This document shows positions 19,289 through 32,549 of a DNA stretch of 32,549 bases, piece after piece. The notes under the pieces were generated by a model. The model saw only the letters and a list, made by a program, of their open reading frames with translations, had not been told where the DNA came from and did no database searches. The position numbers and the translations under genes are program-made. The DNA lies in NCBI RefSeq assembly GCF_009882945.1, contig NZ_WTUY01000022.1, forward strand, positions 1 through 32,549, in the 5' to 3' direction. The first letter of the stretch is position 1, and every line of letters starts with the position of its first letter. This DNA is from Alcanivorax sp. DP30. GTDB taxonomy: Bacteria; Pseudomonadota; Gammaproteobacteria; Pseudomonadales; Alcanivoracaceae.

Positions 19289-19294
19289 AAAAGC

Positions 19295-19324
19295 AGTTAA
19301 AAGTTAATGATTAAAAGTTAACAG
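19295..19324 (+). repeat. AT-rich heptamer tract after secF
   Basis: Four tandem 7-base units, AGTTAAA, AGTTAAT, GATTAAA, AGTTAAC, lie between the secF stop and its terminator. A shorter version (AGTTAAT, AATTAAT, AGTGAAA) follows cysE at 30360-30380 in the same relation to stop codon and terminator. Both are led by AAAAAGC. Confidence 0.7.
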
Positions 19325-19327
19325 CGA

Positions 19328-19366
19328 AAACAAAAAAGCCGCGATTCGTTCGCGGCTTTTTTGTTT
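19328..19366 (+). terminator. Intrinsic terminator after secF
   Basis: AAACAAAAAAGCCGCG (19328-19343), a seven-base loop, then CGCGGCTTTTTTGTTT (19351-19366): a perfect 16-bp inverted repeat with A and T flanks. It may work in both directions, since the class I aminotransferase gene converges from the right. Confidence 0.9.
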
Positions 19367-19374
19367 GAGTACTG

Positions 19375-19400
19375 CCGTAGGAGCCTGCCTGCAGGCGATT
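19375..19400 (+). repeat. Single REP arm
   Basis: CCGTAGGAGCCTGCCTGCAG followed by GCGATT repeats the arm found as an inverted pair at 326-374. No partner arm is found in the next bases; instead a heptamer tract starts within two bases. Confidence 0.7.
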
Positions 19401-19401
19401 A

Positions 19402-19562
19402 AGAAGCAAGCTACAGGCTTCAAGCTGCAACACAGAGTAGTGTGGCAGAAGATCCTGGCGCCTTGCCCGCGCACAATTTTCAGCCATCAAGCGGGGTATG
19501 GCATTGTTGCTCAAGATGGCCTTTCTCGCGTTGTAACTTGCAGCTTGAGGCTTGCAGCTTTA
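19402..19562. repeat. Heptamer inverted-repeat element after the class I aminotransferase gene
   Basis: Left arm 19402-19434: AGAAGCA, AGCTACA, GGCTTCA, AGCTGCA, ACACAG. Right arm 19527-19562, read on the minus strand from the stop codon: TAA, AGCTGCA, AGCCTCA, AGCTGCA, AGTTACA, ACGCG. The first heptamer shares its leading A with the TAA. The arms enclose about 90 bases without an open frame of note. Confidence 0.7.
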
Positions 19563-20765
19563 CGAAAAATTTTGTTTCTTCATCCATGGAATAATCCGCT
19601 CGAAGGCCTCTTCAATCTGATCCAGGGAGGTGGAGTAGCTGATGCGCAATGCGCTCTTGCCGGCTTCGCCGAAGGTGTCGCCGGAGATGGTGCAGACGCC
19701 GGTTTCCCGCAGCATTTTCAGGGCCACGTTAGCGCCGTCCACTCCCTCCGGAAGAGAAGGGAAGAGATAGAACGCGCCTTCCGGTCGGTAGCCGGTGAGG
19801 TGTGGGGTCTGTTCCACTAACTCCACCAGGCGGTCGCGGCGTTGCTGGTATTCTTCCACCATGCTGTCGATAAACTGGTTGCTGCCACGCAAGGCCGCGA
19901 CGCCGGCCCATTGGCAAGGTGTGTTGGCTACGGTGGTGGTGAACATGTGGTAGCGGCGCAGTTTCTTGATGGCGCCCTGGCTGCCGATCAGCCAACCTAC
20001 TCGCATGCCTGCCATGGAAAAGGTTTTTGAGAAGCTGCTGATCACCATCACGTGATCCAGATCCGAGCAGCAGGACAGCACGCTGGGGTATTCACGGCCA
20101 TCATAGATCAGATGATCGTAGACTTCATCGCTGATGACATGGATTCCCCGATAGGCAGCTTCTTCCACAATGGCTTCGATGGTTTCACGTGGGTAGATGG
20201 TGCCGGTGGGATTACTGGGGGAATTGAGAACCACGGCAAAGGTGTTGGGCCCCATGGCGTCGATCACTTCCTGGGGATCCAGCTGGTGGTCATTTTCAGC
20301 ACGGGTGGCAATGTGTTTTACCGTGCCACCGTTCATGCGAATCAGTGGGCCATAAAGCATGAACGAGGGATCCGGGACAATGAATTCCCGTCCCGGTGCG
20401 GAGGTGGCTGTCAGGGCCAGATAAATGGCTTCCGTCGCCCCGGTGGTGATCATCATGTTTTCCGGAGACAGTGGGCGGCCGTAACGTTGGCTGTAATAGT
20501 CCGCCAGTGCTTCCAGCAATTCCGGCAAGCCGGCATCCATGGTGTAGCCGGTCTGGCCTGCGTTCAGGGCGTCTACCCCGGCCTGAATGACATGCCCTGG
20601 TGGTTTGAAGTCCGGCTGGCCGATGGACAGGTGGATCACGTCGTCCAGATCTGCGGCCAGGTTCACCATGCGGCGAATGCCCGGCACCGGAATGGTGAGC
20701 AACGCCGGGTTCCAGATCGGGTCTTCGCTTTCGTAGAAATCCGTGTCCAGATTGATATTGCCCAT
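19560..20765 (-). CDS. Class I/II pyridoxal-phosphate aminotransferase (aspartate aminotransferase-like)
   Basis: A 401-residue fold-type-I aminotransferase. Visible residues are Asn185 in SPSNPTGT, Asp213 and Tyr216 in SDEVYDHLIYDG, the PLP lysine Lys247 in SSFSKTFSMAGMRVGW, and the substrate-carboxylate arginine in ALRISYS near the end. It should move amino groups between an amino acid and a 2-oxo acid; the amino acid cannot be told from sequence alone. ATG 20765 is six bases after GGAG; the adjacent ATG 20768 is only three bases away from it. It is the last gene of the minus-strand catabolic block, separated from the amidase gene by a REP palindrome, and its stop codon lies in a heptamer repeat arm. 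Confidence 0.85.
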   Translation of the reverse strand: MGNINLDTDFYESEDPIWNPALLTIPVPGIRRMVNLAADLDDVIHLSIGQPDFKPPGHVIQAGVDALNAGQTGYTMDAGLPELLEALADYYSQRYGRPLSPENMMITTGATEAIYLALTATSAPGREFIVPDPSFMLYGPLIRMNGGTVKHIATRAENDHQLDPQEVIDAMGPNTFAVVLNSPSNPTGTIYPRETIEAIVEEAAYRGIHVISDEVYDHLIYDGREYPSVLSCCSDLDHVMVISSFSKTFSMAGMRVGWLIGSQGAIKKLRRYHMFTTTVANTPCQWAGVAALRGSNQFIDSMVEEYQQRRDRLVELVEQTPHLTGYRPEGAFYLFPSLPEGVDGANVALKMLRETGVCTISGDTFGEAGKSALRISYSTSLDQIEEAFERIIPWMKKQNFS

Positions 20766-20793
20766 CATGTTCTCCTGTTGGCGATCAGTCCTG

Positions 20794-20860
20794 CCGTAGG
20801 AGCGTCGTTGGCGGCGCGATAACCATCGCCGGAATCGCGCCGCCAGCGACGCTCCTACGG
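20794..20860. repeat. REP-type palindrome between aminotransferase and amidase genes
   Basis: A 27-base arm starting CCGTAGGAGCGTCGTTGGCG (20794-20820) is matched by its reverse complement at 20834-20860 with a single G-T difference; the loop is 13 bases. It shares GTAGGAGC and GCGAT ends with the units at 326 and 19375 but has a different core, as expected for one REP superfamily. Confidence 0.85.
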
Positions 20861-20867
20861 AGAGAGG

Positions 20868-22274
20868 CTAGTCCTGCAGCATTGGCGGCAGGTGAACGAA
20901 TGGCTGCGCCTGTTCGAAGGCATGGCCGGCGGCCAGCACCCGGGCATCGTCGAATCGGGCGCCGACAATCTGCAACCCCATGGGCATGCCATTACTGTTG
21001 AGCCCCATGGGCACCGACAGCGCTGGCTGGCCGGTCATGTTGAAGGGGTAGGTAAACGGCGTCCATGTGGGCCAGCGAGTGCTGGGCCAGTCCACCGGCA
21101 CTTCACGGTTGGTGTCGAAGGCTTCGATGGGCAGGGTGGGGGTGATCAACAGATCGTATTTGGTGTGGAACACCGCCATGCGTTCACTCACCGCCATGCG
21201 CTCGTTCATGGCGCCGAGGTAATCAAGCATGCTGAGCTTCTCTGCCTTGGCTGCCACTTCCACCAGAGCCGGATCCATCAGGCTGCGTTGGCGATCGCCG
21301 AGGTCGCGCATGGCATTGGCGGCACCACTGTAGAAAAGGTGACTGAAGGCGGCCAGCGGGTTACTGAAGCCCGGGTCGGCTTCGGTGACGATGGCGCCAA
21401 GGGCTTCGAACACCTTGGCGGCTTCCTTGAAGGCCTTGTCGATGTCCGCATCCACGTCTACGTAGCCCAGATTGGGGCTCATGGCGATGCGCAGCCCCTT
21501 CATGGGCTGATGCAGCTCCTTGACGTAATCGATGTGGCGACGGGGGGCCGCCAGACTGTCGCGGGGATCCGCTTCCGTCATCACGTTCATCATCAGTGCC
21601 GCATCCGCTACCGTGCGGGTCATGGGGCCGGCATGGGCGAGCGTGCCGAAGGGGCTGGCGGGCCAGTGGGGCACTTCACTGAAGGTGGGCTTGTGGCCAA
21701 CGATGCCGCAGAAACCGGCAGGAATGCGGATGGAGCCGCCGGCATCAGTGCCCAGCGCCAGCGGAGCCATACCCGCGGCGACGGCGGCGGAGCTGCCACC
21801 GCTGCTGCCCCCTGCGGTCCGGGCCGGGTTCCAGGGATTGTTGGTGGGGCCGCATAGAGGGCTGTCGGTAATGCCTTTCCAGCCGAATTCCGGTGTGGTT
21901 GTCTTGCCAAGAGGAACATAACCGTGGCGCTCCAGTGCCGCTACGGCAGGGGAGCGTTTATTGAGCGTGGATTCCGGGTCGATGGTTTTTGACCCCTTCA
22001 CCGTCGGCCACATGGGTGTGAGGAACACATCCTTGACCGCCACCGGCACCCCATCCAGCAGACCTTCAGATTTACCATTCTGGTAACGTTGCTCGGATTC
22101 TTGAGCCCATTGCAGTGTGGTGTCACGGTCGATCAGACACCAGGCATTCAATGCTTCATCGTGCTTTTCAATATGATCCAGCAGGGTGGAGCAAACTTCC
22201 ACCGGCGATAAGGCGCCTGTCTGGTAGGCGGCTTTGAGTGCCTGGGCACTCATGGTCAGTAGTTCCTTGCTCAT
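20868..22274 (-). CDS. Amidase signature family hydrolase
   Basis: A 468-residue amidase. The Ser-cisSer-Lys triad is visible: Lys81 in PVAVKDVF, Ser157/158 in AGGSSGGSSAA, and nucleophile Ser181 in LGTDAGGSIRIPAG. Such enzymes hydrolyse carboxylic amides to acid and ammonia; GatA uses the same fold, but no gatB or gatC lies nearby and the specificity region differs, so a catabolic amide hydrolase is more likely. ATG 22274 is chosen because AGGAGG lies seven bases upstream; the longer frame from 22301 would start before that site. It follows the hydroxyacid dehydrogenase gene across a gap of about 75 bases holding a hairpin. Confidence 0.88.
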   Translation of the reverse strand: MSKELLTMSAQALKAAYQTGALSPVEVCSTLLDHIEKHDEALNAWCLIDRDTTLQWAQESEQRYQNGKSEGLLDGVPVAVKDVFLTPMWPTVKGSKTIDPESTLNKRSPAVAALERHGYVPLGKTTTPEFGWKGITDSPLCGPTNNPWNPARTAGGSSGGSSAAVAAGMAPLALGTDAGGSIRIPAGFCGIVGHKPTFSEVPHWPASPFGTLAHAGPMTRTVADAALMMNVMTEADPRDSLAAPRRHIDYVKELHQPMKGLRIAMSPNLGYVDVDADIDKAFKEAAKVFEALGAIVTEADPGFSNPLAAFSHLFYSGAANAMRDLGDRQRSLMDPALVEVAAKAEKLSMLDYLGAMNERMAVSERMAVFHTKYDLLITPTLPIEAFDTNREVPVDWPSTRWPTWTPFTYPFNMTGQPALSVPMGLNSNGMPMGLQIVGARFDDARVLAAGHAFEQAQPFVHLPPMLQD

Positions 22275-22301
22275 CGGCGTACCTCCTGGTTTGACGCTCA
22301 T

Positions 22302-22356
22302 CGCTTGGGTCAGAAGCCCGGGCTGGGTTGTTGTTTCAGGCTTCTGGCATCAAGCG
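22302..22356. repeat. Heptamer-related hairpin between hydroxyacid dehydrogenase and amidase genes
   Basis: CGCTTGGGTCAGAAGCCCG (22302-22320) folds back on CAGGCTTCTGGCATCAAGCG (22337-22356) with about 80% pairing. The right arm contains the stop codon of the hydroxyacid dehydrogenase. Read from that stop on the minus strand, units TGATGCC and AGAAGCC appear. Confidence 0.6.
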
Positions 22357-23321
22357 TTACTTACATAGCCATGTTCCTTGCTGACGGGGTTTTTCAGGGG
22401 TTCCCCTTGTTGCCAGCGTTGAAAGTTATCGACAAATTGTTGGCCAAGTGCCGCGCGCCAGCCGATGAAGTCTCCGGCCATATGGGCAGAGATCATCACG
22501 TTGGGTTGATCCCATAGCGGGTGATCGGCGCGCAGCGGTTCTTCTTCAAAGACATCCAGCGCTGCGCCGCCCAGCCGTCCGCTTTGCAGGGCGGCGAGCA
22601 AGGCGTCGGTTTGCACGATGGGGCCGCGACCCACATTGATCAGCACCGCGCCGGGTTTCATGCGCAGGAACTGGTCTGCATCGAACAGGCCTTCGGTGTC
22701 TGATGTCAGTGGTGCGGTAATGATGACGTAGTCCGCGTCCGGGAGCAGATCTGGCAGATCCTCTTGAGCATGGACCTTTTCAAAGACGGTATCCTCGCGC
22801 GCATTGCGAGCGGTGCCGATGACGTTGACACCCAGAAGCCCGAGCAGGGTGGCTACTTCGCGGCCTATGGAACCGGCGCCCACTACCACAGCCTGGCTGT
22901 CCCGCAGCAATCGGGTTTCGCGATGTTGCCAGCGGTGTTCCTTCATCAGTGACAGATTGGTGAGCGTGTCCTTGGCAAACAGCAGCAGGGCACCGAGCAC
23001 GTATTCGGCAATGCCACGATCAAAAATGCCGCGGGCGTTGGTGACCACGATCTCGCTGTTGCGGATCGGCTCGATCATCAGCGCATCCACACCGGCACTG
23101 GTGGCATGGACCCAGCGCACCGGACAATTCTGTGGCCACACCGCTTCAAGCATCCCGGTACGGAAATCCGTCACCACCAGCACATCGCTCACCGGCAGCG
23201 CCGCTTGCAACTCCCCCCGCGTCCGCGCCTCACGCACCTCGGCCTGACCGGCAAGGGAATCCAGACCAGGCAGGCTCGGTTCGTCTTCGGCGAGCAGGAC
23301 GGTGATGGTGGGTTGTGTCAT
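22350..23321 (-). CDS. D-2-hydroxyacid dehydrogenase family protein
   Basis: A 323-residue NAD(P)-dependent dehydrogenase interconverting 2-hydroxy and 2-oxo acids. The Rossmann motif VVVGAGSIG (residues 145-153) and the catalytic set Arg232 (NVGRGPIV), Glu261 (DVFEEEP) and His280 (ISAHMAGD) are all present. It is shorter at the N-terminus than PGDH, with no ACT domain, so it resembles glyoxylate/hydroxypyruvate or ketoacid reductases. AAGGAG precedes the ATG. It lies in the catabolic block, downstream of the gabT-like gene, with a heptamer inverted repeat between them, and its stop codon is inside another hairpin. The true substrate is unknown. Confidence 0.86.
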   Translation of the reverse strand: MTQPTITVLLAEDEPSLPGLDSLAGQAEVREARTRGELQAALPVSDVLVVTDFRTGMLEAVWPQNCPVRWVHATSAGVDALMIEPIRNSEIVVTNARGIFDRGIAEYVLGALLLFAKDTLTNLSLMKEHRWQHRETRLLRDSQAVVVGAGSIGREVATLLGLLGVNVIGTARNAREDTVFEKVHAQEDLPDLLPDADYVIITAPLTSDTEGLFDADQFLRMKPGAVLINVGRGPIVQTDALLAALQSGRLGGAALDVFEEEPLRADHPLWDQPNVMISAHMAGDFIGWRAALGQQFVDNFQRWQQGEPLKNPVSKEHGYVSNA

Positions 23322-23336
23322 TTAAACTCCTTCGTT

Positions 23337-23481
23337 AGCTACAAGCCGCAAGCCACAAGCTTCAACGCGGGCAAGGTCTGATCCTTTTCAGACTCTGAGC
23401 CCGCGGTTGGGCTGTTGACGCGGCGGAAACCGCTTTCAACTGCAAGACACTGAAGCGCGTTGTAGCTTGCAGCTTGTTGCT
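23337..23481. repeat. Heptamer inverted-repeat element between gabT-like and hydroxyacid dehydrogenase genes
   Basis: Left arm: AGCTACA, AGCCGCA, AGCCACA, AGCTTCA, ACGCG (23337-23369). Right arm: CGCGT, TGTAGCT, TGCAGCT, TGTTGCT (23456-23481). The arms are inverted copies and the ACGCG/CGCGT ends face inward. The core has small hairpins, such as GTCTGA...TCAGAC near 23376-23393. It spans from six bases before the upstream gene's stop codon to the next gene's ribosome binding site. Confidence 0.8.
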
Positions 23482-23486
23482 GTTTT

Positions 23487-24734
23487 TCAGGTTTCTTTCA
23501 GGGCCGCCTCGAACAGGCCAACGGCCTTGTCAATTTCTGCTTCGGTGACGGTGAGTGGTGGTAGCCAGCGGACCACTTGTCCCTGGCTGCCGCAGCGCAA
23601 CATCAGCATACCGTTTTGTTCGCAATGTTTGAGAATCCGGGCGGCGCGGTCACCGTCCGGGGTGTGCGGGGCACTGACCATTTCTACGCCGAGCATCAGG
23701 CCTGCACCCCGGATTTCATCAATGCAGTCGTGTTCCTTCTGCAGGCCTTCCAGGTGGCTGCGTAACGCATTACCGAGTTTTTCTGCGCGGGCGACCAGTT
23801 GTTCTTCCTCGATGACATCCAGGGTTGCCAGGGCGGCGGCACAGGCAACCGCATTGGCACCATAGGTGCCGCCCTGTGAGCCGGGGTAGCCGTGATTCAT
23901 CAGTTCCTTGCTGGCGGCAATGGCGGACAGCGGATAGCCGCTGGCCAGGCCTTTGGCGGTAATGATGATGTCGGGTTTTACGCCGTAATGTTCGTGGCTC
24001 CAGAATTTTCCGGTACGGCCGTAGCCTGCTTGAATCTCGTCGGCGATGAGCAGGATGCCGTGTTTGTCGCAGCGCTCCCGCAGACCTTTCATAAAGGTTT
24101 CGGTGGCGGGGTAGTAGCCGTACTCGCCCTGCACCGGTTCGATAATCATGGCGGCGGTGTCTGCCGGATTACATTCGGTGGCGAAGACATGGTCCAGTTC
24201 GTGCAGGCAGGCCGCGACACACTCATCCATGTCCTGATTGTAACGATAGGCATGGGGGAACGGAGCGATGCTGACCCCGGCCATGAGCGGTTGCCAGCCA
24301 GTGCGTACCTTGCTGGTGGAGGTGGTTAGGGAAGCCGCGGCCAGAGTGCGTCCATGAAAGCCGCCCCGAAATGCGATCAAATTGGTCCGGCCGGTGGCCT
24401 GGCGAGCCAGTCTGACGGCGGCTTCCACGGATTCGCTGCCGGAATTGGAAAACGCCACGGCGTCCAGCCCCTGGGGCAGATGTGAATAGAGGCGATCGGT
24501 CAGGGCGAGCATGTTGGGGTGGGTGACGGTGGCGTACTGGGCATGCACCAGTTTGGCAACCTGCTCCTGGGCGGCTGCTACCACTTTGGGATGGCAGTGG
24601 CCGGTGGCAGTGACGCCAATGCCGGAAGTGAAATCCAGCCAGCGATTGCCGTCCTTGTCGTAGAGCCAGCTACCTTCGCCGCGCTCCGCACAAATGCCAC
24701 TGGACTGTACCAGCAGGGGGGACAGATGACTCAT
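23487..24734 (-). CDS. gabT: Class III aminotransferase, 4-aminobutyrate aminotransferase-like
   Basis: A 415-residue omega-amino acid transaminase. Visible residues are the SNSGSESVEAA cofactor-phosphate segment near 96-106, Asp232 in LIADEIQAGYGRTG and the PLP lysine Lys261 in IITAKGLASGYP. With GabD upstream in the same block, the simplest role is transfer of the amino group of GABA to 2-oxoglutarate, giving succinate semialdehyde. Related enzymes act on 5-aminovalerate, beta-alanine or polyamine products, so the symbol is tentative. A strong AAAGGAGG lies four bases before the ATG. The gap to the upstream dehydrogenase gene is 35 bases, the only junction of the block without a palindromic repeat. 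Confidence 0.85.
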   Translation of the reverse strand: MSHLSPLLVQSSGICAERGEGSWLYDKDGNRWLDFTSGIGVTATGHCHPKVVAAAQEQVAKLVHAQYATVTHPNMLALTDRLYSHLPQGLDAVAFSNSGSESVEAAVRLARQATGRTNLIAFRGGFHGRTLAAASLTTSTSKVRTGWQPLMAGVSIAPFPHAYRYNQDMDECVAACLHELDHVFATECNPADTAAMIIEPVQGEYGYYPATETFMKGLRERCDKHGILLIADEIQAGYGRTGKFWSHEHYGVKPDIIITAKGLASGYPLSAIAASKELMNHGYPGSQGGTYGANAVACAAALATLDVIEEEQLVARAEKLGNALRSHLEGLQKEHDCIDEIRGAGLMLGVEMVSAPHTPDGDRAARILKHCEQNGMLMLRCGSQGQVVRWLPPLTVTEAEIDKAVGLFEAALKET

Positions 24735-24769
24735 GGCGCCTCCTTTCTGTCGCGCTTTGGCCGTTGGGG

Positions 24770-25897
24770 TTATCCCGCAGCCAGTCGTTGACTCAGTCGT
24801 TGCCCGGTTTCTCTTGTTCCCGAGAAAGCGTCTTTCAGATCCTCTGCAATCAGGTCATGCAGATGTTGTGCCGCATTGCCGATGGCCGGATGTTTCGGGG
24901 CCAGATTATCCAGCAGCATGGCGAGACTCATCAGGGTGGCCCTGGGGTCCGCCATGTTGCGGCCCGCAATGTCCGGGGCGCTGCCGTGCACCGGCTCAAA
25001 CAACGCAGGTATACGATCATCCGCCGGATTAAGGTTGGCTGAGGGCGCGAGCCCCGGGCCGCCGCACAGTACCGCGGCCAGGTCTGTGAGAATGTCGCCG
25101 TGCAGGTTGCTGGCCACCACCACATCGAAGCGCCAGGGGCATTGCACGAATTTCATGCAGGCGGCATCCACCAGTTCATGATGTGTGTCTACATCCGGAT
25201 ATTCCTGTGCAATGCGTTCAAAGGTTTCGGTATACAGGTCGCCCCAGAAGGGTTGCGCATTGCGTTTGGTGATCAGACACACCTGAGCCGTGGTGTCGTT
25301 GGCAAAGTGTCGAGTGATGTTGCGCTTTGTGGCGCGTTGGCGAGCGCGTTCGAAGGCATGCCGGATCAGGCGTTCAGTGGCGCCGGCGGTAAAGACTTCC
25401 ACCTGGGTCGCCACTTCGCTGGGCGTGCCCGCGCGTAAACGACCGCCCTGATTGCTGTACTCCCCCTCGCTGTTTTCCCGGATTACCAGCATGTCCACAT
25501 CGTTGGCCCGTGCGTCAGCCAGATACTGGGGGGCGCCGGGCAACCAGCGGGCGGGGCGCTCGCAGGCCCACAGATTCAGTTGCTTGCGCAGTTCCAGCAG
25601 GGGGGAAAGGGAAACACTGTCGGAAAGCACATAGCGCTGTGGGTCATCGATGGGTCCGGGGTCTCCCAGGGCGCCCAGCAGAATGGCATCGAAGGCGCGT
25701 AGTTGTTCGACGCCGTCTGCCGGCATCATCTCTCCATGTTGTTGATGCCAGGCATGGGAAGGCCAGTCGAAATTCACCGCTTCCAGAGGCAGCTTGAAGC
25801 GCTCCACCAGCTGCGCCAACAAGGTCTCGGTGACTGTCATGACCTCGGGGCCAATACCGTCACCGGGGAGTAGGGCGATTTTCAGCGTTTCCGTCAT
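24770..25897 (-). CDS. Isocitrate/isopropylmalate dehydrogenase family, tartrate/D-malate dehydrogenase-like
   Basis: A 375-residue beta-decarboxylating dehydrogenase, dependent on NAD and a divalent metal. The N-terminal ALLPGDGIGPEV, the substrate segment VIRENSEGEYSNQGG and the metal-binding VVASNLHGDILTDLAA with two aspartates are present, as is the NAD-site stretch EPVHGSAPDIAG. RENSEGEYS rather than the leucine-pathway or Krebs-cycle versions points to tartrate dehydrogenase/D-malate dehydrogenase (TtuC/DmlA type), which makes oxaloglycolate or pyruvate. GGAG stands seven bases before ATG 25897. It follows gabD across a repeat-filled gap and precedes the gabT-like gene by 35 bases. Confidence 0.85.
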   Translation of the reverse strand: MTETLKIALLPGDGIGPEVMTVTETLLAQLVERFKLPLEAVNFDWPSHAWHQQHGEMMPADGVEQLRAFDAILLGALGDPGPIDDPQRYVLSDSVSLSPLLELRKQLNLWACERPARWLPGAPQYLADARANDVDMLVIRENSEGEYSNQGGRLRAGTPSEVATQVEVFTAGATERLIRHAFERARQRATKRNITRHFANDTTAQVCLITKRNAQPFWGDLYTETFERIAQEYPDVDTHHELVDAACMKFVQCPWRFDVVVASNLHGDILTDLAAVLCGGPGLAPSANLNPADDRIPALFEPVHGSAPDIAGRNMADPRATLMSLAMLLDNLAPKHPAIGNAAQHLHDLIAEDLKDAFSGTRETGQRLSQRLAAG

Positions 25898-25911
25898 CCA
25901 TAACTCCTGTC

Positions 25912-26060
25912 AGCGGCGAGCTTCCAGCTATCAGCAACGCGCTTAAAACCGGAACCTCGGCATCGCTGCAATCAAGGTTTTTACCCGGCCAAAGGATCAT
26001 CATTGTGTCTGCCCTGTGACCGCGCAGCGGCTCGTCGCAAGAAGCTGGTAGCTGCTTTTA
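25912..26060. repeat. Heptamer inverted-repeat element between gabD and the TtuC-like gene
   Basis: Left arm: AGCGGCG, AGCTTCC, AGCTATC, AGCAACGCG (25912-25940). Right arm, read from the gabD stop on the minus strand: TAAA, AGCAGCT, ACCAGCT, TCTTGCG, ACGAG, then CGCG (26021-26060). The arms pair imperfectly. The left arm ends just before the ribosome binding site of the next gene. Confidence 0.65.
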
Positions 26061-27515
26061 ACTCCCCATGCAGAGATATTTCTCTTCCAGGTATTCGTCC
26101 ATACCCTGGTGAGAACCTTCCCGGCCGAGGCCGGATTCCTTGACGCCGCCGAACGGGGCGGCGGCGTTGGAGATGATGCCTTCGTTGACACCGACCATGC
26201 CGCTTTCCAGCGCCTCTGCCACGCGCCAGCAGCGGTGGATGTTGTTGCTGTAGAAGTAGGCGGCCAGTCCGTAAGGGGTATCGTTGGCGATACGGATGGC
26301 TTCCTCTTCATCGTTGAAGCGGATCACGGCTGCCAGGGGGCCAAAGGTTTCTTCCGCGCAAAGTTGAGCGTCCTGGGTAACGCCGGTAATCAATGTGGGT
26401 TGCACAAAGCTGCCCCCTTTCTGGTGGCGCTGCCCACCTGTTATCACCTTGGCGCCCTTGCCCAGTGCATCCTCAATATGCTCCATGACCTTGTCCGCGG
26501 CGCCGCGGTTGATCAAGGCTGCCTGGGTGACCCCTTCCTCAAGGCCATCGCCAATCTTCATGGCCTCAATGGCGTTTTTCAGTTTTTCCACGAAGGCGTC
26601 ATGGACGCTGTCCTGAACCAGAAAGCGGTTCACGCAGACACAGGTCTGGCCGGTGTTGCGGAATTTGCTGGCCATGGCACCTTCCACTGCCTTGTCCAGG
26701 TCCGCATCGTCAAACACGATGAAGGGCGCATTGCCACCAAGCTCGAGAGATACCTTCTGGATGTGCTTCGCGCACTGGGCCATCAACTTGCTGCCGACCT
26801 CAGTGGAGCCCGTGAAGCTGAGTTTGCGTACAATGGTGGAGTCGGTTAGTGCCGTGGAAATGGCCCCGGCACTGCCGGTAATCACGTTGAATACGCCGGC
26901 GGGAATGCCTGCTCGCTCTGCCAGTTCTGCCAGTGCCAGGGCCGAATAGGGAGTGGCACTGGCCGGTTTGACCACCATGGTGCAACCGGCGGCCAGTGCT
27001 GCACCGGCCTTGCGAGTGATCATGGAAGAGGGAAAGTTCCAGGGGGTAATCGCTGCGGTAACACCGATGGGTTGCTTGATGACGACAATACGCTGACCGG
27101 GCTTGGCACCGGGAATGGTGTCGCCGTAGGCGCGGCGTGCTTCTTCGGAGAACCATTTCAGAAAAGAAGCGGCGTAGGCAATTTCCCCCTTGGCTTCGGC
27201 CAGTGGTTTGCCCTGCTCAAGCGTCATCAACCGTCCGAGATCGTCTTGATGCTGCATCATCAGGTCGTGCCAGGCTTCAAGCAGGTTGGCGCGCTCTGCT
27301 GCCGGCTTGTCCCGCCAGGCCGGGAAGGCCGTATTGGCAGCCTCGATGGCCTTGTTGGTCTCGGCTTCGCCCATGCGGGGGGCGGTGCCTATCGCTTCTT
27401 CGCTGGCCGGGTTATCTACCTGAATGGTGCTTCCGTCGTCGGCATCACACCATTGCCCATTGATGTAACACTGTTCACGGAATAGGGCCTGATCCGATAG
27501 CTTTACTGAGGTCAT
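26058..27515 (-). CDS. gabD: NAD(P)-dependent succinate-semialdehyde dehydrogenase
   Basis: The 485-residue aldehyde dehydrogenase oxidises succinate semialdehyde to succinate, the second step of GABA breakdown. By eye it is closely similar to E. coli GabD along its whole length, for example LMTLEQGKPLAEAKGEI and KVSLELGGNAPFIVFDDADL. Catalytic residues are Asn160, Glu258 and Cys292 (GQTCVCVNR). GGAG lies eight bases before the ATG. It is the first gene of the minus-strand catabolic block; the promoter should lie in 27516-27610, an AT-richer stretch, though no firm -35/-10 pair was found. A heptamer repeat separates it from suhB upstream, and another sits at its stop codon. Confidence 0.93.
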   Translation of the reverse strand: MTSVKLSDQALFREQCYINGQWCDADDGSTIQVDNPASEEAIGTAPRMGEAETNKAIEAANTAFPAWRDKPAAERANLLEAWHDLMMQHQDDLGRLMTLEQGKPLAEAKGEIAYAASFLKWFSEEARRAYGDTIPGAKPGQRIVVIKQPIGVTAAITPWNFPSSMITRKAGAALAAGCTMVVKPASATPYSALALAELAERAGIPAGVFNVITGSAGAISTALTDSTIVRKLSFTGSTEVGSKLMAQCAKHIQKVSLELGGNAPFIVFDDADLDKAVEGAMASKFRNTGQTCVCVNRFLVQDSVHDAFVEKLKNAIEAMKIGDGLEEGVTQAALINRGAADKVMEHIEDALGKGAKVITGGQRHQKGGSFVQPTLITGVTQDAQLCAEETFGPLAAVIRFNDEEEAIRIANDTPYGLAAYFYSNNIHRCWRVAEALESGMVGVNEGIISNAAAPFGGVKESGLGREGSHQGMDEYLEEKYLCMGS

Positions 27516-27614
27516 TCCGGGTCTCCTTGCGAACGCGTCTGTCTTTCACGCTAGCAAAGCCCACGGATATGTCTATGCCGAATTTCAAAAATCAGTTTGG
27601 GGCCTAAGGAAATC

Positions 27615-27769
27615 AGCTGCTAGCGATTAACTGTGAGCTGCGGGAAAAAGTGGAGAAGCAGAAACACTGAACAGGAAGGACGCTGCCACAGAGGGCGATG
27701 GGGCGCGGCTCAAGAAGTGCAGGTTGGCACTGGGCTTGGGCCGCGTTGCAGCTAGAAGCTGGCAGCTTA
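27615..27769. repeat. Heptamer inverted-repeat element between suhB and gabD
   Basis: Left arm: AGCTGCT, AGCGATT, AACTGTG, AGCTGCG (27615-27642). Right arm: CGCGT, TGCAGCT, AGAAGCT, GGCAGCT, TA (27742-27769). The right arm runs into the suhB stop codon, so on the minus strand the stop TAA leads directly into AGCTGCC, AGCTTCT, AGCTGCA, ACGCG. Confidence 0.72.
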
Positions 27770-28585
27770 TCTCCGCAGTCCCTCGGTAAGGTGGGGTTTG
27801 ATCTTTTGCAGCAGGCCCTTGAAGACTTTCGGGCTGCCGGCGACGACGCCGCCGCTTTCCAGGAATTTATGGCCACCGCTCAGATCGCCGATCAGACCAC
27901 CGGCTTCCGTGATCAGCAGTGCGCCCGCGGCCATGTCCCACTCGGCCAGGCCGAATTCGAAGAAGCCGTCCAGACGACCGGCGGCCAGCCAGGCCAGATC
28001 CAGTGCCGCGGAGCCGGGCCGACGCAGGCCGGCGGTGCTGGCGGCGATATCGGCGAACATGCCCAGGTAGGCGTCCATGAAGGGAGCTTGATCCTGACGG
28101 AACGGGAAGCCGGTACCGATCAGGCAGCCTTCCAGACCGGGGCGGTTGGTGCAGCGGATACGGCGGCCATTGAGCGCGGCGCCGCGGCCCCGGCTGGCGG
28201 TAAACTCTTCATCACGGTTGGGATCATAAATGACAGCATGTTCCAGCTTGCCCTTGTACTTGAGGGCAATGGAGACACAGAACTGTGGGAAACCGTGAAT
28301 AAAGTTGGTGGTGCCATCCAGTGGGTCGATGATCCACTGGTAGTCGGCGCCTTCGCCCTTGCCTTCGATGATGCCGGATTCCTCGGCGAGAATGCCGTGG
28401 TCCGGGTAGGCTTTGAGGAGGGTTTCGATGATGCGTTTTTCCGCCGCACGATCCACTTCAGTAACGAAGTCATTCATGCCTTTCTTGCTGACAGATACCG
28501 GGTCGCTGCTCTCGGCGGCTCGTCGAATCAGGTTGCCCGCGGTACGGGCGGCTCGCAGGGCGATATTCACTTGCGGCGCATGCAT
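27767..28585 (-). CDS. suhB: Inositol-1-monophosphatase family protein SuhB
   Basis: The 272-residue Mg-dependent phosphatase resembles E. coli SuhB (267), which dephosphorylates inositol phosphate and also joins rRNA antitermination complexes. Metal-binding motifs are ILAEESG (65-71, Glu68/69), [12 protein letters not shown] (84-95) and the C-terminal [21 protein letters not shown] 28585 aligns with family starts ([18 protein letters not shown]); the longer frame to 28729 would run through the promoter region. GAGGA lies eight bases upstream. It is divergent from trmJ, as in many gammaproteobacteria, and its stop codon lies in a heptamer repeat arm. Confidence 0.93.
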
Positions 28586-28658
28586 GCATCTGTCCTCAAA
28601 AAAGAAATAGGCTGTCAAAGAACGCCGGTGCACAGGGCGAACCTGTCCGGGGGCGCGA

Positions 28659-28664
28659 ATTGTA
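28659..28664 (-). promoter_or_regulatory. Candidate -10 element of suhB
   Basis: Read on the minus strand the hexamer is TACAAT, five of six positions of the sigma-70 -10 consensus, in a GC-rich background. It would give a leader of about 65 bases. A matching -35 is not clear. Confidence 0.4.
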
Positions 28665-28762
28665 GCAGAGCCCGGGCGTTGTGGGCAGCTTAAGCGGTCA
28701 TTAATACAGTCCCATGATAACATTGCCATCTTTTACGACCAGACCTCTGTACAGGAACGCTG

Positions 28763-29536
28763 ATGCTGGAAAATGTGCGTATCGTGATGGTGGAAACCAC
28801 CCATCCCGGCAATGTGGGGGCGGCAGCCCGGGCCATGAAAACCATGGGGCTGTCGGATTTGCGTCTGGTGCAGCCGCAGTCTTATCCCAATGTGGAGGCC
28901 ACTGCGCGGGCCTCCGGGGCCGGTGATGTGCTGGAGGCGGCCCAGGTCTGCCAGAGCCTGGATGAAGCCCTGGAAGGTGCCACTCTGGTGATCGGCACCA
29001 GTGCCCGTCAGCGGCGCATCCCCTGGCCCTGTCTGACCCCGCGTCAGCTGGCCGCTCAGTTGTCCCACGAGCCAGACGAAACCCGTATTGCGGTGCTGTT
29101 CGGCCGCGAAGACCGCGGGCTCACCAATGATGAGCTGCGCCGTTGCAACCTGCATGTGAGTGTGCCTGCCAACCCGGAATACGGGGTGCTGAATGTGGCC
29201 TCGGCGGTGCAATTGATCAGCTATGAGCTACGCCTGGCCCTGCTGGGGGAAGATTTTGATCTGCAGGAGTCCCGTTCGCGCAGGGAAGCCATGCCGTTGC
29301 CGGAAATGTTCTGGGATGAACCCCTGGCCACCAACGATGCAGTGTCCGGTTTTCTTGATCACCTGGAACGGGTCATGGAGCAGAGCGGCTTCCTCAATCC
29401 CGAGCAGCCTGGGCAGGTAATGACTCGCATGCGCCGTTTGTTTATGCGGGCGCGACCGGACAAAATGGAAATGAGCATCTTGCGCGGTGTGCTGGTGGCA
29501 CTGGAGAAAAGAATGAACGGTACGGACAAGCCTTAA
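28763..29536 (+). CDS. trmJ: tRNA (cytidine/uridine-2'-O-)-methyltransferase TrmJ
   Basis: A 257-residue SPOUT-class enzyme that methylates the 2'-OH of residue 32 in several tRNAs using SAM. The three family motifs are visible: the N-terminal [17 protein letters not shown] (about 13-29), the central [15 protein letters not shown] (about 110-124) and the knot segment [17 protein letters not shown] (about 135-151). The C-terminal tail of about 90 residues with [14 protein letters not shown] is typical for TrmJ. It is the first gene of the plus-strand trmJ-cysE pair and divergent from suhB. Confidence 0.94.
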
Positions 29537-29586
29537 GCGGTGCCTGCTCCGTATCAATCAGGGCTTTGGTCCGTGATGAGGTAGTT

Positions 29587-30354
29587 ATGTTTGATCGAGT
29601 ACGCGAGGACATTGCGTCGGTTTTTCACCGGGACCCGGCGGCCCGCAACACCCTGGAGGTGTTGCTTAATTATCCCGGCTTGCATGCGGTGCTGTTTCAC
29701 CGTCTGGCTCATGCCTTGTGGCGGCGGAGTTTCAAGCAACTGGCGCGATTTGTCTCTACTTTTTCGCGCTGGGCCACTGGCATTGAAATTCATCCCGGTG
29801 CCCAGATTGGTCGGCGCTTCTTTATTGATCACGGCATGGGAGTGGTGATCGGGGAAACCGCAGAGATCGGTGACGATGTGACGCTCTATCACGGTGTTAC
29901 CCTGGGCGGCACCAGCTGGAACAAGGGCAAGCGTCACCCGACTCTGGAAGACGGTGTTGTGGTGGGTGCCGGTGCCAAGGTGCTGGGCCCGTTTACCGTA
30001 CACAAGAATGCCCGAATCGGTTCCAATTCCGTGGTGACCAAGGAGGTGCCTGAAGGCGCCACGGTGGTGGGTATCCCCGGTCGGGTTATCAACAAGCCAA
30101 TGACGGAAAAGGAAAAGACCCGCAAGGAGATGGCCGACAAGATAGGCTTTGAGGCCTACGGTGTCAGCAATGACATGCCGGATCCGGTAGCGGAAGCGAT
30201 TCATCTGCTGCTGGATCACATGCACGCGGTCGATAACAAACTGGACAGGGTTTGCACCAACCTGAAGAAGCAGGGCATTCAGGGGTGCGATGAGAAGTTG
30301 CCGGAATTGAAGGATGAAGACTTCGAGCCGGTGAATGCTGGCGGGACGGACTAA
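29587..30354 (+). CDS. cysE: Serine O-acetyltransferase
   Basis: CysE acetylates L-serine with acetyl-CoA, the first step of cysteine synthesis. The 255-residue protein has a helical N-terminal domain and a left-handed beta-helix of hexapeptide repeats (about 60-165) with the family stretches [27 protein letters not shown] and [13 protein letters not shown]. The extended tail after residue 190 is charged. ATG 29587 is used because GAGGTAG precedes it at a good distance; ATG 29566 lies before that site. In pseudomonads cysE is followed by iscR and the isc cluster; here a terminator and the convergent ychF follow instead. Confidence 0.95.
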
Positions 30355-30359
30355 AAAGC

Positions 30360-30380
30360 AGTTAATAATTAATAGTGAAA
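30360..30380 (+). repeat. AT-rich heptamer tract after cysE
   Basis: AGTTAAT, AATTAAT, AGTGAAA lie between the cysE stop and the terminator and match the tract after secF in order, spacing and the preceding AAAAAGC. Confidence 0.6.
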
Positions 30381-30420
30381 CAAAAAAGGCCGCATCCGGC
30401 AGGGTGCGGCCTTTTTGTTT
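30378..30420. terminator. Bidirectional intrinsic terminator between cysE and ychF
   Basis: GGCCGCATCC pairs with GGGTGCGGCC (one G-T pair) around a small loop, flanked by AAACAAAAAA on the left and TTTTTGTTT on the right. Both strands therefore show a GC stem followed by T, serving the convergent genes cysE and ychF. Its flanks resemble those of the secF terminator. Confidence 0.88.
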
Positions 30421-30441
30421 GCGTGTTGCCAGCTGCGGCTT

Positions 30442-31533
30442 TTAGACGTTAAAGCGGAAGTGCACCACGTCGCCATCCTTGACGATATATTCCTTGCCTT
30501 CCAGGCGCCATTTGCCGGCTTCCTTGGCACCGGATTCGCCGTTGTACTCGATGTAGTCGTCGTAGGCGGTGACTTCGGCGCGGATGAAGCCTTTTTCGAA
30601 ATCGGTGTGGATTACGCCGGCAGCCTGGGGAGCGGTGGCGCCGACTCTGACGGTCCAGGCGCGGACTTCCTTCACCCCGGCGGTGAAGTAGGTCTGCAGA
30701 CCCAGCAGGCTGAATCCGGCGCGGATGACCCGGTTCAGGCCCGGTTCTTCCATGCCCAGATCCGCCAGGAAGTCTGCCTTTTCTTCATCATCCAGTTCGG
30801 CAATTTCAGATTCGATCTTGGCGCAGATCGGCACCACGGAAGCATTTTCCTTCTCGGCCAGCTCGCGCACGGCGTCCAGCAGGGCATTATCTTCAAAGCC
30901 GCCCTCGTCCACATTGGCAATGTACATGGTGGGCTTGAGGGTAAGCAGGTTAAGGCTCTTGATGGCCTTGCGCTCGTCGTCACTGAGTGCCACAGAGCGA
31001 GCCGGCTCGCCTTCGTTGAGCGCGGGCATCACCTTGTCGAGTACTGGCAGCAAACCCTTGGCGTCCTTGTCCTGTCCCTTGGCGGCCTTGGTGGCACGCA
31101 GGTGGGCTTTTTCCACGGTATCCAGGTCGGCCAGGGCCAGCTCGGTGTTGATCACCGCAATATCATCCAGTGGGGAGACCTTGCCTGCCACATGGATCAC
31201 ATTCTCATCGTCAAAGCAGCGCACCACGTGGGCAATGGCATCGGTTTCGCGGATGTTGGCCAGGAACTTGTTGCCCAGCCCTTCACCCTTGGAGGCGCCA
31301 GCCACCAGGCCGGCAATGTCCACGAATTCCATGGTGGCAGGCATTACCCGTTCCGGGTTGACGATGGCCTCCAGCTTGCCCAGACGGGGGTCTGGCACCG
31401 GGACTACGCCGGTGTTGGGCTCAATGGTGCAGAACGGGAAGTTCTCGGCATCAATCCCCGCCTTGGTGAGCGCGTTGAACAGGGTGGATTTACCCACATT
31501 GGGCAGACCGACGATACCGCATTTGAAACCCAT
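30442..31533 (-). CDS. ychF: Redox-regulated ATPase YchF (OLA1 family GTP-binding protein)
   Basis: A 363-residue member of the Obg-related ATPases that binds the ribosome and favours ATP over GTP. The P-loop [14 protein letters not shown] is at about 9-22, the switch segment [18 protein letters not shown] near 69-86, and a coiled coil and TGS-like C-terminal domain ([15 protein letters not shown]) follow. Length is typical. GGAGG precedes the ATG. In many relatives ychF lies beside pth; that partner is not in this window. Just after its stop on the minus strand come AAAGCCGCAGCTGGCA, a short heptamer-type run, and then the shared terminator. Confidence 0.96.
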
Positions 31534-31705
31534 GACAGACCTCCGTAATTCGAGGGCGCAATGCTACTCAACGCGGGCTGAAAAAGCGACCACCACAGGG
31601 CGGATAGGGCGGTTGCTGGGGGGACGACGGGGCCAGGCGCTGGTGCCGATGTTCGCGGGGGAGGCTGGGCTAGACTTGTCTCAATCATGGCAGATTGATG
31701 ACATT

Positions 31706-32446
31706 ATGACGGACCGTATTCTCTACCAGTTTCCGATTTCCCATTATTGCGAGAAAAGCCGCTGGCAGCTGGACTTCAAGGGACTCGATTACCAGGAGAA
31801 GAACCTGTTGCCCGGGCCCCATCGCCTGCGCACCCGCTGGATGGCGCGGATCGATACCCTGCCGATTCTGCGCGATGGCCGGCGCACGGTGGGCGACTCC
31901 ACCAAGATTGCCTATTACCTGGAGAAATATTACCCGCAACGGAGCCTGTTACCGGTAGCTCCGGATCAGCGGGCCCGGGTCATCGAGCTGGAGCAGAAAT
32001 TCGACAGGCTGGGCGTGGATGTGCGCCGCTGGCTGTATGGGCAGATTATCGATCGCCCTGAAGTGATGCAGGCCATGCTCAACCCCTATGGCTTGCCCGG
32101 TGTGGTTCAGTCGGTGCTGACACCGCTGACCAGGGAAGGGGTGCGGCGCTTGTACCGGATCGAGCCGAAAGCAGTAATGCGTGCCGGTCAACGGCTTGAG
32201 GAGGGGCTGCTGTTGCTGGAAGAGCAGCTCAAGAAGGGTAGCGGTCGCTATCTGGTGGGCGATCAACTGACCCTGGCCGACATCGCCGCCGCCAGCCTGT
32301 TGGCCCCTCTGCTTAGCCCTGCCGGTACGCCCTGGGATATCTTCGATGAAAGCACCCTGCCATCAGCGTTGCAGTCCGAGCTGCAGAAACTCCGCGAGCG
32401 GCCGGCCGGGCAATGGGTGTTGGCGCGATACGCGGAGGATCGGTGA
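31706..32446 (+). CDS. Glutathione S-transferase family protein
   Basis: A 246-residue protein with an N-terminal thioredoxin-like domain (about 1-80; ISHYCEKSRWQLDFKG near 10-25, with a Cys at the usual active-site place) and a helical C-terminal domain with GRYLVGDQLTLADIAAASLL near 190-210. The proline after IDTL (residues 50-53) matches the cis-Pro of the glutathione site. Such proteins conjugate or reduce with glutathione; the substrate is unknown. ATG 31706 is the first Met of the domain; the frame stays open far upstream, but that part is the antisense of ychF and is not credible. No strong Shine-Dalgarno is seen. The tandem heptamer array begins five bases after the stop. Confidence 0.82.
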   Translation: MTDRILYQFPISHYCEKSRWQLDFKGLDYQEKNLLPGPHRLRTRWMARIDTLPILRDGRRTVGDSTKIAYYLEKYYPQRSLLPVAPDQRARVIELEQKFDRLGVDVRRWLYGQIIDRPEVMQAMLNPYGLPGVVQSVLTPLTREGVRRLYRIEPKAVMRAGQRLEEGLLLLEEQLKKGSGRYLVGDQLTLADIAAASLLAPLLSPAGTPWDIFDESTLPSALQSELQKLRERPAGQWVLARYAEDR

Positions 32447-32451
32447 CGATC

Positions 32452-32549
32452 AGCTACGAGCTACGAGCTACGAGCTACAAGCTACAAGCTACAAGCTACA
32501 AGCTACAAGCTACAAGCTACAAGCTACAAGCTACAAGCTACAAGCTACA
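32452..32549 (+). repeat. Tandem AGCTACR heptamer array running off the window end
   Basis: Fourteen perfect 7-base units: AGCTACG three times, then AGCTACA eleven times, up to the last base. It starts five bases after the stop codon of the glutathione S-transferase gene. The array is probably longer than shown. There are no spacers, so it is not a CRISPR array. Confidence 0.97.

Follow-up and report, generated by a model that had tools for sequence, protein, structure and literature searches.

The closest described relative of the elements analyzed here is the intervening sequence (IVS) in the 23S ribosomal RNA (rRNA) of Coxiella burnetii, which has complementary ends, an open reading frame (ORF) for S23p, a protein with a solved structure and no known function, three GACAGAT units before this ORF and an RNase III site at the first repeat (PMC4990558). 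Tandem heptamers are also described from intergenic regions. Those of Xanthomonas (GGGAATC) and Nostoc mostly comprise four units, with mean distances of 28 nt to the neighboring 5′ ORF and 160 nt to the downstream ORF (PMC4692102). Here, we analyze arrays of 7-base units (heptads), typified by AGCTNCA, and the palindromic elements that they form in Alcanivorax sp. DP30. The starting point was a stretch of 32,549 nt, hereafter the window, which is the entire contig NZ_WTUY01000022.1 (C16) of a 3.62-Mb genome in 24 contigs; G, L and C numbers denote genomes, loci and contigs. Further background is provided by rRNA IVS that lack an ORF and by the degenerate 7-mers of cyanobacterial short tandemly repeated repetitive (STRR) heptads and of tRNA-Leu intron heptad hairpins, which in the intron occupy both hairpin strands.

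The Alcanivorax elements share with the Coxiella IVS the complementary ends, tandem heptamers and an ORF of the IVP family of similar size (PMC4990558). They differ from rRNA IVS in lying between protein genes rather than in 16S or 23S rRNA, and from the Coxiella IVS in having heptad arms on both sides and non-coding copies dispersed in the genome. The ORF is found in the IVP elements described below and is absent from the ~150-bp elements of the window. As in the Xanthomonas and Nostoc repeats, length and sequence vary between close species; those repeats, however, are described as single G-rich arrays with possible quadruplexes, and the accessible text of that report mentions neither inverted partners nor IVP (PMC4692102). 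The TAACTGA repeats of Beggiatoaceae likewise lie between genes as tandem 7-mers, two to six per set, but are presented as one fixed sequence that lies mostly just before starts, with one inverted set only (PMC4679880); the terms S23 and four helix are absent from that paper. Repetitive extragenic palindromes (REPs) with a GTAG tag and the hairpins formed by REP doublets (REPINs) resemble our elements as extragenic palindromes, at times touching stop codons and probably mobile, but are described with the tag, 20–40-bp units, no heptads and a dedicated transposase (PMC3733652). In the open-access literature, with subscription journals outside the search, no report joined IVP genes with heptad arms outside rRNA, and exact heptad strings gave no match in the open-access papers searched. 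The complementary ends, S23p ORF, heptamers and RNase III site of the Coxiella IVS led us to the proposal, which we consider probable, that the Alcanivorax elements are selfish palindromic elements working like rRNA IVS, but between genes.

Period-7 tracts follow stop codons throughout the genome and genus

Period-7 tracts follow stop codons across the genome and the genus Alcanivorax, far beyond the window. Genes were called with our own hexamer gene finder on 814,705 bp, comprising the window and loci L001–L040. L001–L033 are two parts of contig C20 chosen by position, while L034–L040 were chosen for already listed array matches, so that array densities in this sample are a biased estimate. 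The score cut-off for arrays was 9 for calls in the window and 11 or more for sample counts.

Array abundance exceeded chance: we counted 358 copies of AGCTNCAAGCTNCA in the genome and none of its reversed form, and the sample contains 70 arrays with a score of at least 11 compared to 3 in the reversed sequence. The other 16 genus genomes hold 7 to 626 copies of AGCTNCAAGCTNCA each, one other genus of the family holds 152 (G018) and the remaining 19 genomes hold 0–2. Three AGCTNCA units in a row were detected in two of 368 other genomes of the class sample, once in G312 and 30 times in G324. The latter genome belongs to another family of the class, and the spread of this dialect is patchy. Searching GTDB genomes for the complete-element pattern returned 32 stretches, 24 from Alcanivorax or Alcanivoracaceae, seven from one Pseudomonadales bin and one from a Desulfomonilaceae bin. 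In this last case (L075), a contig of the metagenome bin bears a full Alcanivorax-type element, through either wrong binning or transfer.

A sequence-independent test scored how often the 45 nt behind stops match themselves at a shift of seven bases (lag 7); the value was 0.309 for the DP30 genome (z = 17.7, n = 409) and 0.392 for the syntenic region of 16 relatives (z = 24, n = 196), the loci of which are orthologous and the statistics therefore not independent. Before starts, z was 2.3 and 4.9, respectively. Behind stops, lags 14 and 21 follow lag 7; other lags above shuffles were 1, 3 and weakly 4 in the DP30 genome and 3, 17 and 24 in the relatives. Tracts with a score of at least 8 were present at lag 7 in 46 of 409 3′ flanks versus 1–3 at lags 4–6 and 8–13, and in 22 of 465 5′ flanks versus 0–2 at these other lags, counting one tract that is a run of N. 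Four-unit tracts followed by CGCG are common. The 7-mers include AGCTNCA, AGTTNAA, TTAATAA, GTCNGAC, CACGTAA, ACGCAAC and TGACGCC; what is kept is therefore the period and not one motif, and AGCTNCA, initially a candidate for the motif, was rejected as one dialect among many.

All 60 strand-resolved arrays with a score of at least 11 lie between called protein genes. The anchoring at stop codons that had been noticed in the window holds in the larger sample, where 29 of the 37 arrays with a sense gene on their outer side begin −2 to +6 bp from its stop. Among gaps of at least 60 bp, arrays occupy 13 of 64 convergent, 19 of 241 tandem and 2 of 100 divergent ones. Lack of space alone does not explain this placement, because a GTAG-tagged REP-like repeat in the same sample, GTAGGAGC, is placed differently: 0 of 31 copies lie within −3 to +6 of a sense stop, and one lies at −4 with its own TAG serving as the stop. 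In other genomes, contact of GTAG REPs with stops has been reported (PMC3733652). Stop codons may be targeted by the arrays or merely tolerate them.

Heptad arrays form the arms of palindromic elements

Most AGCTNCA arrays are arms of ~150-bp palindromes. Core boxes were counted in a set of 27 paired AGCT elements that had been collected without reference to these boxes. The cores have a median length of 99 nt; 12 start with ACGCG, 14 end with CGCGT and 26 contain CCGCG or CGCGG at mid-core, as compared with 12 of 27 reversed cores. Sixteen of 18 folds had z values of −2.5 or lower relative to shuffles, with the whole-element signal often coming from the arms alone. Eight convergent-gap copies with AT-rich arms, located at unrelated sites, are 63–90% alike in their aligned parts and have in common a central GAGGCCGCGCCC / GGGCGCGGCCTC hairpin that also occurs in two AGCT-dialect elements. 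Since many cores bear such a terminator-like central hairpin, a 3′-end role may also hold. Long AGCTACA arrays were seen at contig ends (start of C15, end of C16 and start of C18) and at scaffold gaps (N runs in L033); because assembly breaks at long AGCTACA arrays, array lengths are underestimated.

Heptad arms flank IVP genes in three phyla

L033 contains two elements, with 80% mutual identity (361/449), that hold an ORF between heptad arms. This ORF belongs to PF05635 (23S_rRNA_IVP, S23, four-helix-bundle), a family matched by 16 of 17 genus genomes and by none of 14 control genomes, and phmmer retrieved the solved protein 2gsc (XCC0516, 4.1e-14). In the class sample, 77 of 369 genomes have IVP, and in the phylum sample 62 of 398 do. 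The loci fetched were the best-scoring and not random ones: 30 of 46 genus matches, 29 class loci (28 counted, one being without a readable ORF) and 28 further phylum loci, of which 27 lie outside the class, several come from a single genus and four are cut short (two of these four are hits).

Lag-7 tracts lie within 150 nt of IVP at 26 of 30 Alcanivorax loci (21 on both sides) and 25 of 28 class loci (15 on both sides), where other lags reached at most 2. Counted by flanking segment, class loci had such tracts in 44 of 58 segments versus 14 of 345 control segments from the same loci. The further phylum loci gave a similar picture, with tracts at 24 of 28 loci (16 on both sides) and in 40 of 56 flanking segments versus 6 of 322 controls (lag 8 = 4, other lags 0), as did plasmid loci with 14 of 17 (10 on both sides; 10 of 186 control segments). 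On plasmids, lag 8 reached 8 of 34 segments because some arms are low in complexity. By source, tracts occur at 12 of 14 cyanobacterial plasmid loci and at the single Riemerella (Bacteroidota) and the single Azospirillum locus; the single Gemmatirosa locus was without. The two arms of one IVP locus are inverted copies of each other in the same dialect, with a mean match of 0.80 versus 0.51 across loci and 0.53 in direct orientation (40 pairs, two of them scored 0 for short overlap and two, L164 and L172, more alike directly). No rRNA match was found in the 40 of 104 IVP loci that were scanned. Anchoring of IVP elements at upstream stops is suggested by the position of the upstream arm, at −3 to +9 from a stop in 22 of 48 measured loci (4/16 genus, 7/11 class, 5/9 phylum and 6/12 plasmid). 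The other loci of the 104 were dropped for having no clear IVP ORF by a motif rule (38), lacked an upstream tract (11) or a usable upstream ORF (5) or were cut short (2).

An AGTTCCC box stands behind the array in L030, L036, L038 and L039, which have no PF05635 match, as it does in the IVP elements of L033, L128, L131 and L139. The last array of the window is of the same type; its box position lies beyond the contig end.

On plasmids of Pseudanabaena, Anabaena and Picosynechococcus (L267, L274 and L276), IVP lies between cas genes (cas6–cas4 in two and cas10–cmr3 in one), with period-7 arms at L267 and L274. A survey of clustered regularly interspaced short palindromic repeats (CRISPR) lists IVP among linked genes (PMC10910872); IVP genes beside cas genes may be passengers. 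Avd is reported to resemble IVP (PMC10053308), and a reverse transcriptase was considered as a needed partner, as in a diversity-generating retroelement with Avd. This candidate was rejected for the DP30 genome: RVT_1 had 0 matches there, against four PF05635 matches, and was found in 6 of 17 genus genomes. Another genome, G361, has 11 weak PF05635 matches in 1.5 Mb, several of equal score, possibly a diverged amplified family.

Elements are inverted and replaced in place between species

Filled and empty sites, a comparison that the original prediction had put forward, were both found between species. In 17 species, the gabT gap has the same architecture in four dialects, while six species have a 26–36-bp gap or overlapping genes. 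Fourteen gaps could be read at one convergent site: 11 are filled, and the other three measure 57, 73 and −6 bp; three further loci gave no next gene. The gap at this site is reversed between G009 and G002, with 127 of 129 positions matching in reversed and 0.75 in forward orientation (flanking genes 0.90–0.91). The same holds for G016 and G014, whose gaps match at 0.94 in reversed and 0.80 in forward orientation (flanks 0.78 and 0.97). In G000 and G003, the gap is 0.94 alike and the flanks 0.78–0.81. Overall, the element was more alike than the flanking genes in three of six species pairs compared, the six having been picked after an inversion screen in which 5 of 45 pairs passed the mark.

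A site between a transporter gene and cysC (names by reading) has a PF05635 match in 13 of 16 genomes. In G015, a degenerate remnant was recognized by eye, and G005 and G016 have a short gap and a different upstream gene. At this site, the DP30 IVP shares 98% identity with the IVP of G004 and 90% with the IVPs of G001 and G010, whose transporters show 88–89% identity, but 61–64% with the IVPs of G003, G011 and G007, although their transporters are 95–96% identical. The dialect tends to accompany the IVP subfamily. Judged by these identities, entire elements seem to have been exchanged here.

Interpretation and alternative explanations

If the elements work like rRNA IVS, their arms, as inverted tandem 7-mers, would pair as a stem in the transcript. 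The full version would carry the IVP (S23, PF05635) gene between the arms, and the window's elements of ~150 bp, in many cases with a terminator-like hairpin at their center, would be non-coding relatives, presumably derived from or dependent on IVP elements. A site directly behind a stop codon would be where an insert costs the host least. RNase III, which has been shown to cut rRNA IVS, might by analogy cut the stem and free both messages, and IVP might help the element to spread or to be maintained. Alongside their selfish character, the elements may act as terminators, and slippage may shape the arms. The original prediction had offered three readings. A mobile palindrome that targets stop codons fits best, given the dispersed copies, presence and absence between species and elements more alike than their flanks; 3′-end stability or termination may apply as well, with terminator-like hairpins in many cores; and an array of DNA-binding sites does not agree with units that change from gene to gene.

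Several observations weigh against selfish, IVS-like elements. The variable base of paired heptads does not covary, since the fraction of equal bases (35 of 92) matches permutation (mean 0.386). The inverted arms of the 40 IVP pairs correspond to the stem of an IVS, but end-to-end pairing was not above the best shuffle in every element (17 folds). Tracts are missing at 3 of 17 plasmid, 4 of 28 phylum, 3 of 28 class and 4 of 30 genus IVP loci. No target duplication was seen, and in the pairs G000–G011, G001–G012 and G009–G001 the element is about as alike as its flanks, or less. The A. borkumensis-like G015 keeps arrays (seven matches) without a PF05635 match. In other genera, lag-7 tracts occupy 10 of 406 flanks in ten IVP-positive genomes versus 3 of 352 in ten IVP-negative ones, a weak difference in the direction expected if free heptads track IVP presence across genera; the number of non-coding copies in Alcanivorax is thus unusual.

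Host 3′-end elements, that is, bidirectional terminators or message stabilizers with heptads as a by-product of slippage in fast-evolving stems, would account for the central GC hairpin of the convergent family, the most frequent occupation of convergent gaps and the same core at the convergent site in 11 of 14 readable species. We nevertheless judge this explanation unlikely: close relatives lack the element in orthologous gaps, elements also lie between tandem genes and vary widely in their cores, and IVP genes are found between such arms far outside the genus. REP- or REPIN-like elements moved by Y1 transposases (REP-associated tyrosine transposases, RAYTs) are an improbable source. PF01797 is present in 16 of 17 genus genomes, REPs are likewise palindromic and extragenic, and GTAG REPs are reported to give neighbors their stop codons (PMC3733652), but the elements have no constant GTAG tag, end in heptads of changing sequence and are placed differently from the GTAG-tagged repeat of the same genome.

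The long perfect AGCTACA arrays that break assembly, and a report of over-represented heptamer repeats in several bacteria with slippage as the proposed cause (PMC4692102), would suit neutral simple-sequence repeats that arise by polymerase slippage in 7-nt steps and are tolerated behind stops. Slippage alone, however, does not make inverted, dialect-matched arms around IVP, recurrent core boxes or similar copies at unrelated sites, which renders this account very improbable. We give the least credence to arrays of binding sites for a DNA- or RNA-binding host protein, a role that has been suggested for the TAACTGA heptamers of Beggiatoaceae (PMC4679880): the unit sequence changes between genes and between orthologous gaps, so no single binding site is kept.

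Returning to IVS-like selfish hairpins, the position of IVP genes between inverted 7-base arms at most loci analyzed, which come from Pseudomonadota, Cyanobacteriota and, in one case, Bacteroidota, gives the family a setting and a testable partner, its own hairpin. It would also join several separate, unexplained reports of heptamer repeats and make the old guess that IVS are mobile elements testable outside rRNA. The data point to a widespread, little-noticed kind of selfish hairpin element. More tentatively, and with somewhat more doubt than confidence, we suggest that IVP/S23 proteins mark a bacteria-wide class of hairpins behind stop codons with 7-base arms of freely changing sequence, of which the heptamers of Xanthomonas, Nostoc and the Coxiella IVS would be parts and rRNA IVS a special case. 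The IVP link also carries a warning, as IVP genes beside cas or reverse transcriptase genes may be passengers. Within the genus, the elements occupy entire intergenic gaps and thereby shape the 3′ ends of numerous mRNAs.

Arrays and elements of the window

The features of the window are listed below by position; gene names are a reading of the sequence alone.

19289..19364, + strand: AT-rich heptads (AGTTAAN) behind secF, then a terminator-like hairpin; most relatives have this dialect
19402..19559: palindromic heptad element that takes up the secF–aminotransferase gap beside the secF terminator; arms 19402–19429 (+) and 19532–19559 (−); fold z −2.9
19532–19559, − strand: array behind the class I aminotransferase gene, 0 bp from its stop
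23337..23481: palindromic element with heptad arms 23337–23364 (+) and 23461–23481 (−), in the gap from gabT to the following gene; fold z −6.5
23461–23481, − strand: array behind gabT, 5 bp from its stop
25912..26057: degenerate heptad element in the LeuB–gabD gap; left arm score 9.3; fold z −0.2, not below shuffles
27620..27767: partly degenerate heptad element in the gabD–suhB gap; arm 27747–27767 (−) behind the suhB stop; fold z −2.7
27747–27767, − strand: array behind suhB, one-base overlap with its stop
30355..30441: cysE–ychF gap with AT-rich heptads behind cysE, a terminator-like hairpin and degenerate heptads behind ychF on the other strand
32452–32549, + strand: array behind the GST gene, (AGCTACG/A)14, 14 units, truncated at the contig end; array type shared with the 5′ side of IVP elements

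Array scoring recovered the AGCTNCA arrays seen directly behind the stops of the class I aminotransferase, gabT, suhB and GST genes. Units had also been claimed for gabD and ychF, where they exist in degenerate form with scores below 9. Behind secF and cysE, the AT-rich AGTTAAN runs were confirmed; they represent a dialect of the same 7-base period. Of four proposed inverted partners, two are strong (19402–19429 and 23337–23364, giving elements of 158 and 145 bp), while that in the LeuB–gabD gap is weak (25912–25946, score 9.3) and that in the gabD–suhB gap degenerate. The sense direction ascribed to the units holds but is automatic, because both arms of a palindrome read inward.

The fold signal of the 19402..19559 element comes wholly from its arms (core z −0.1), and the core of the 23337..23481 element has ACGCG, CCGCG and CGCGT boxes. 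In the LeuB–gabD gap, relatives have clearer elements than the window; in the gabD–suhB gap, the core GCGGCTCAAG...CTTGAGCCGCG is kept in many relatives. The cysE–ychF gap has different dialects on its two sides. In an Rfam scan of the window, only tRNA and 5S rRNA reached the gathering score and no family was found for the arrays; weak sub-threshold matches overlap the secF and cysE terminators.

Unrelated to the heptads, a GTAG-tagged inverted repeat, GTAGGAGCG...CGCTCCTAC, forms a REP-like pair at 20780–20866 between the aminotransferase and amidase genes. Elsewhere in the order, genome G030 has 49 Y1_Tnp matches, many of which are fragments at contig ends.

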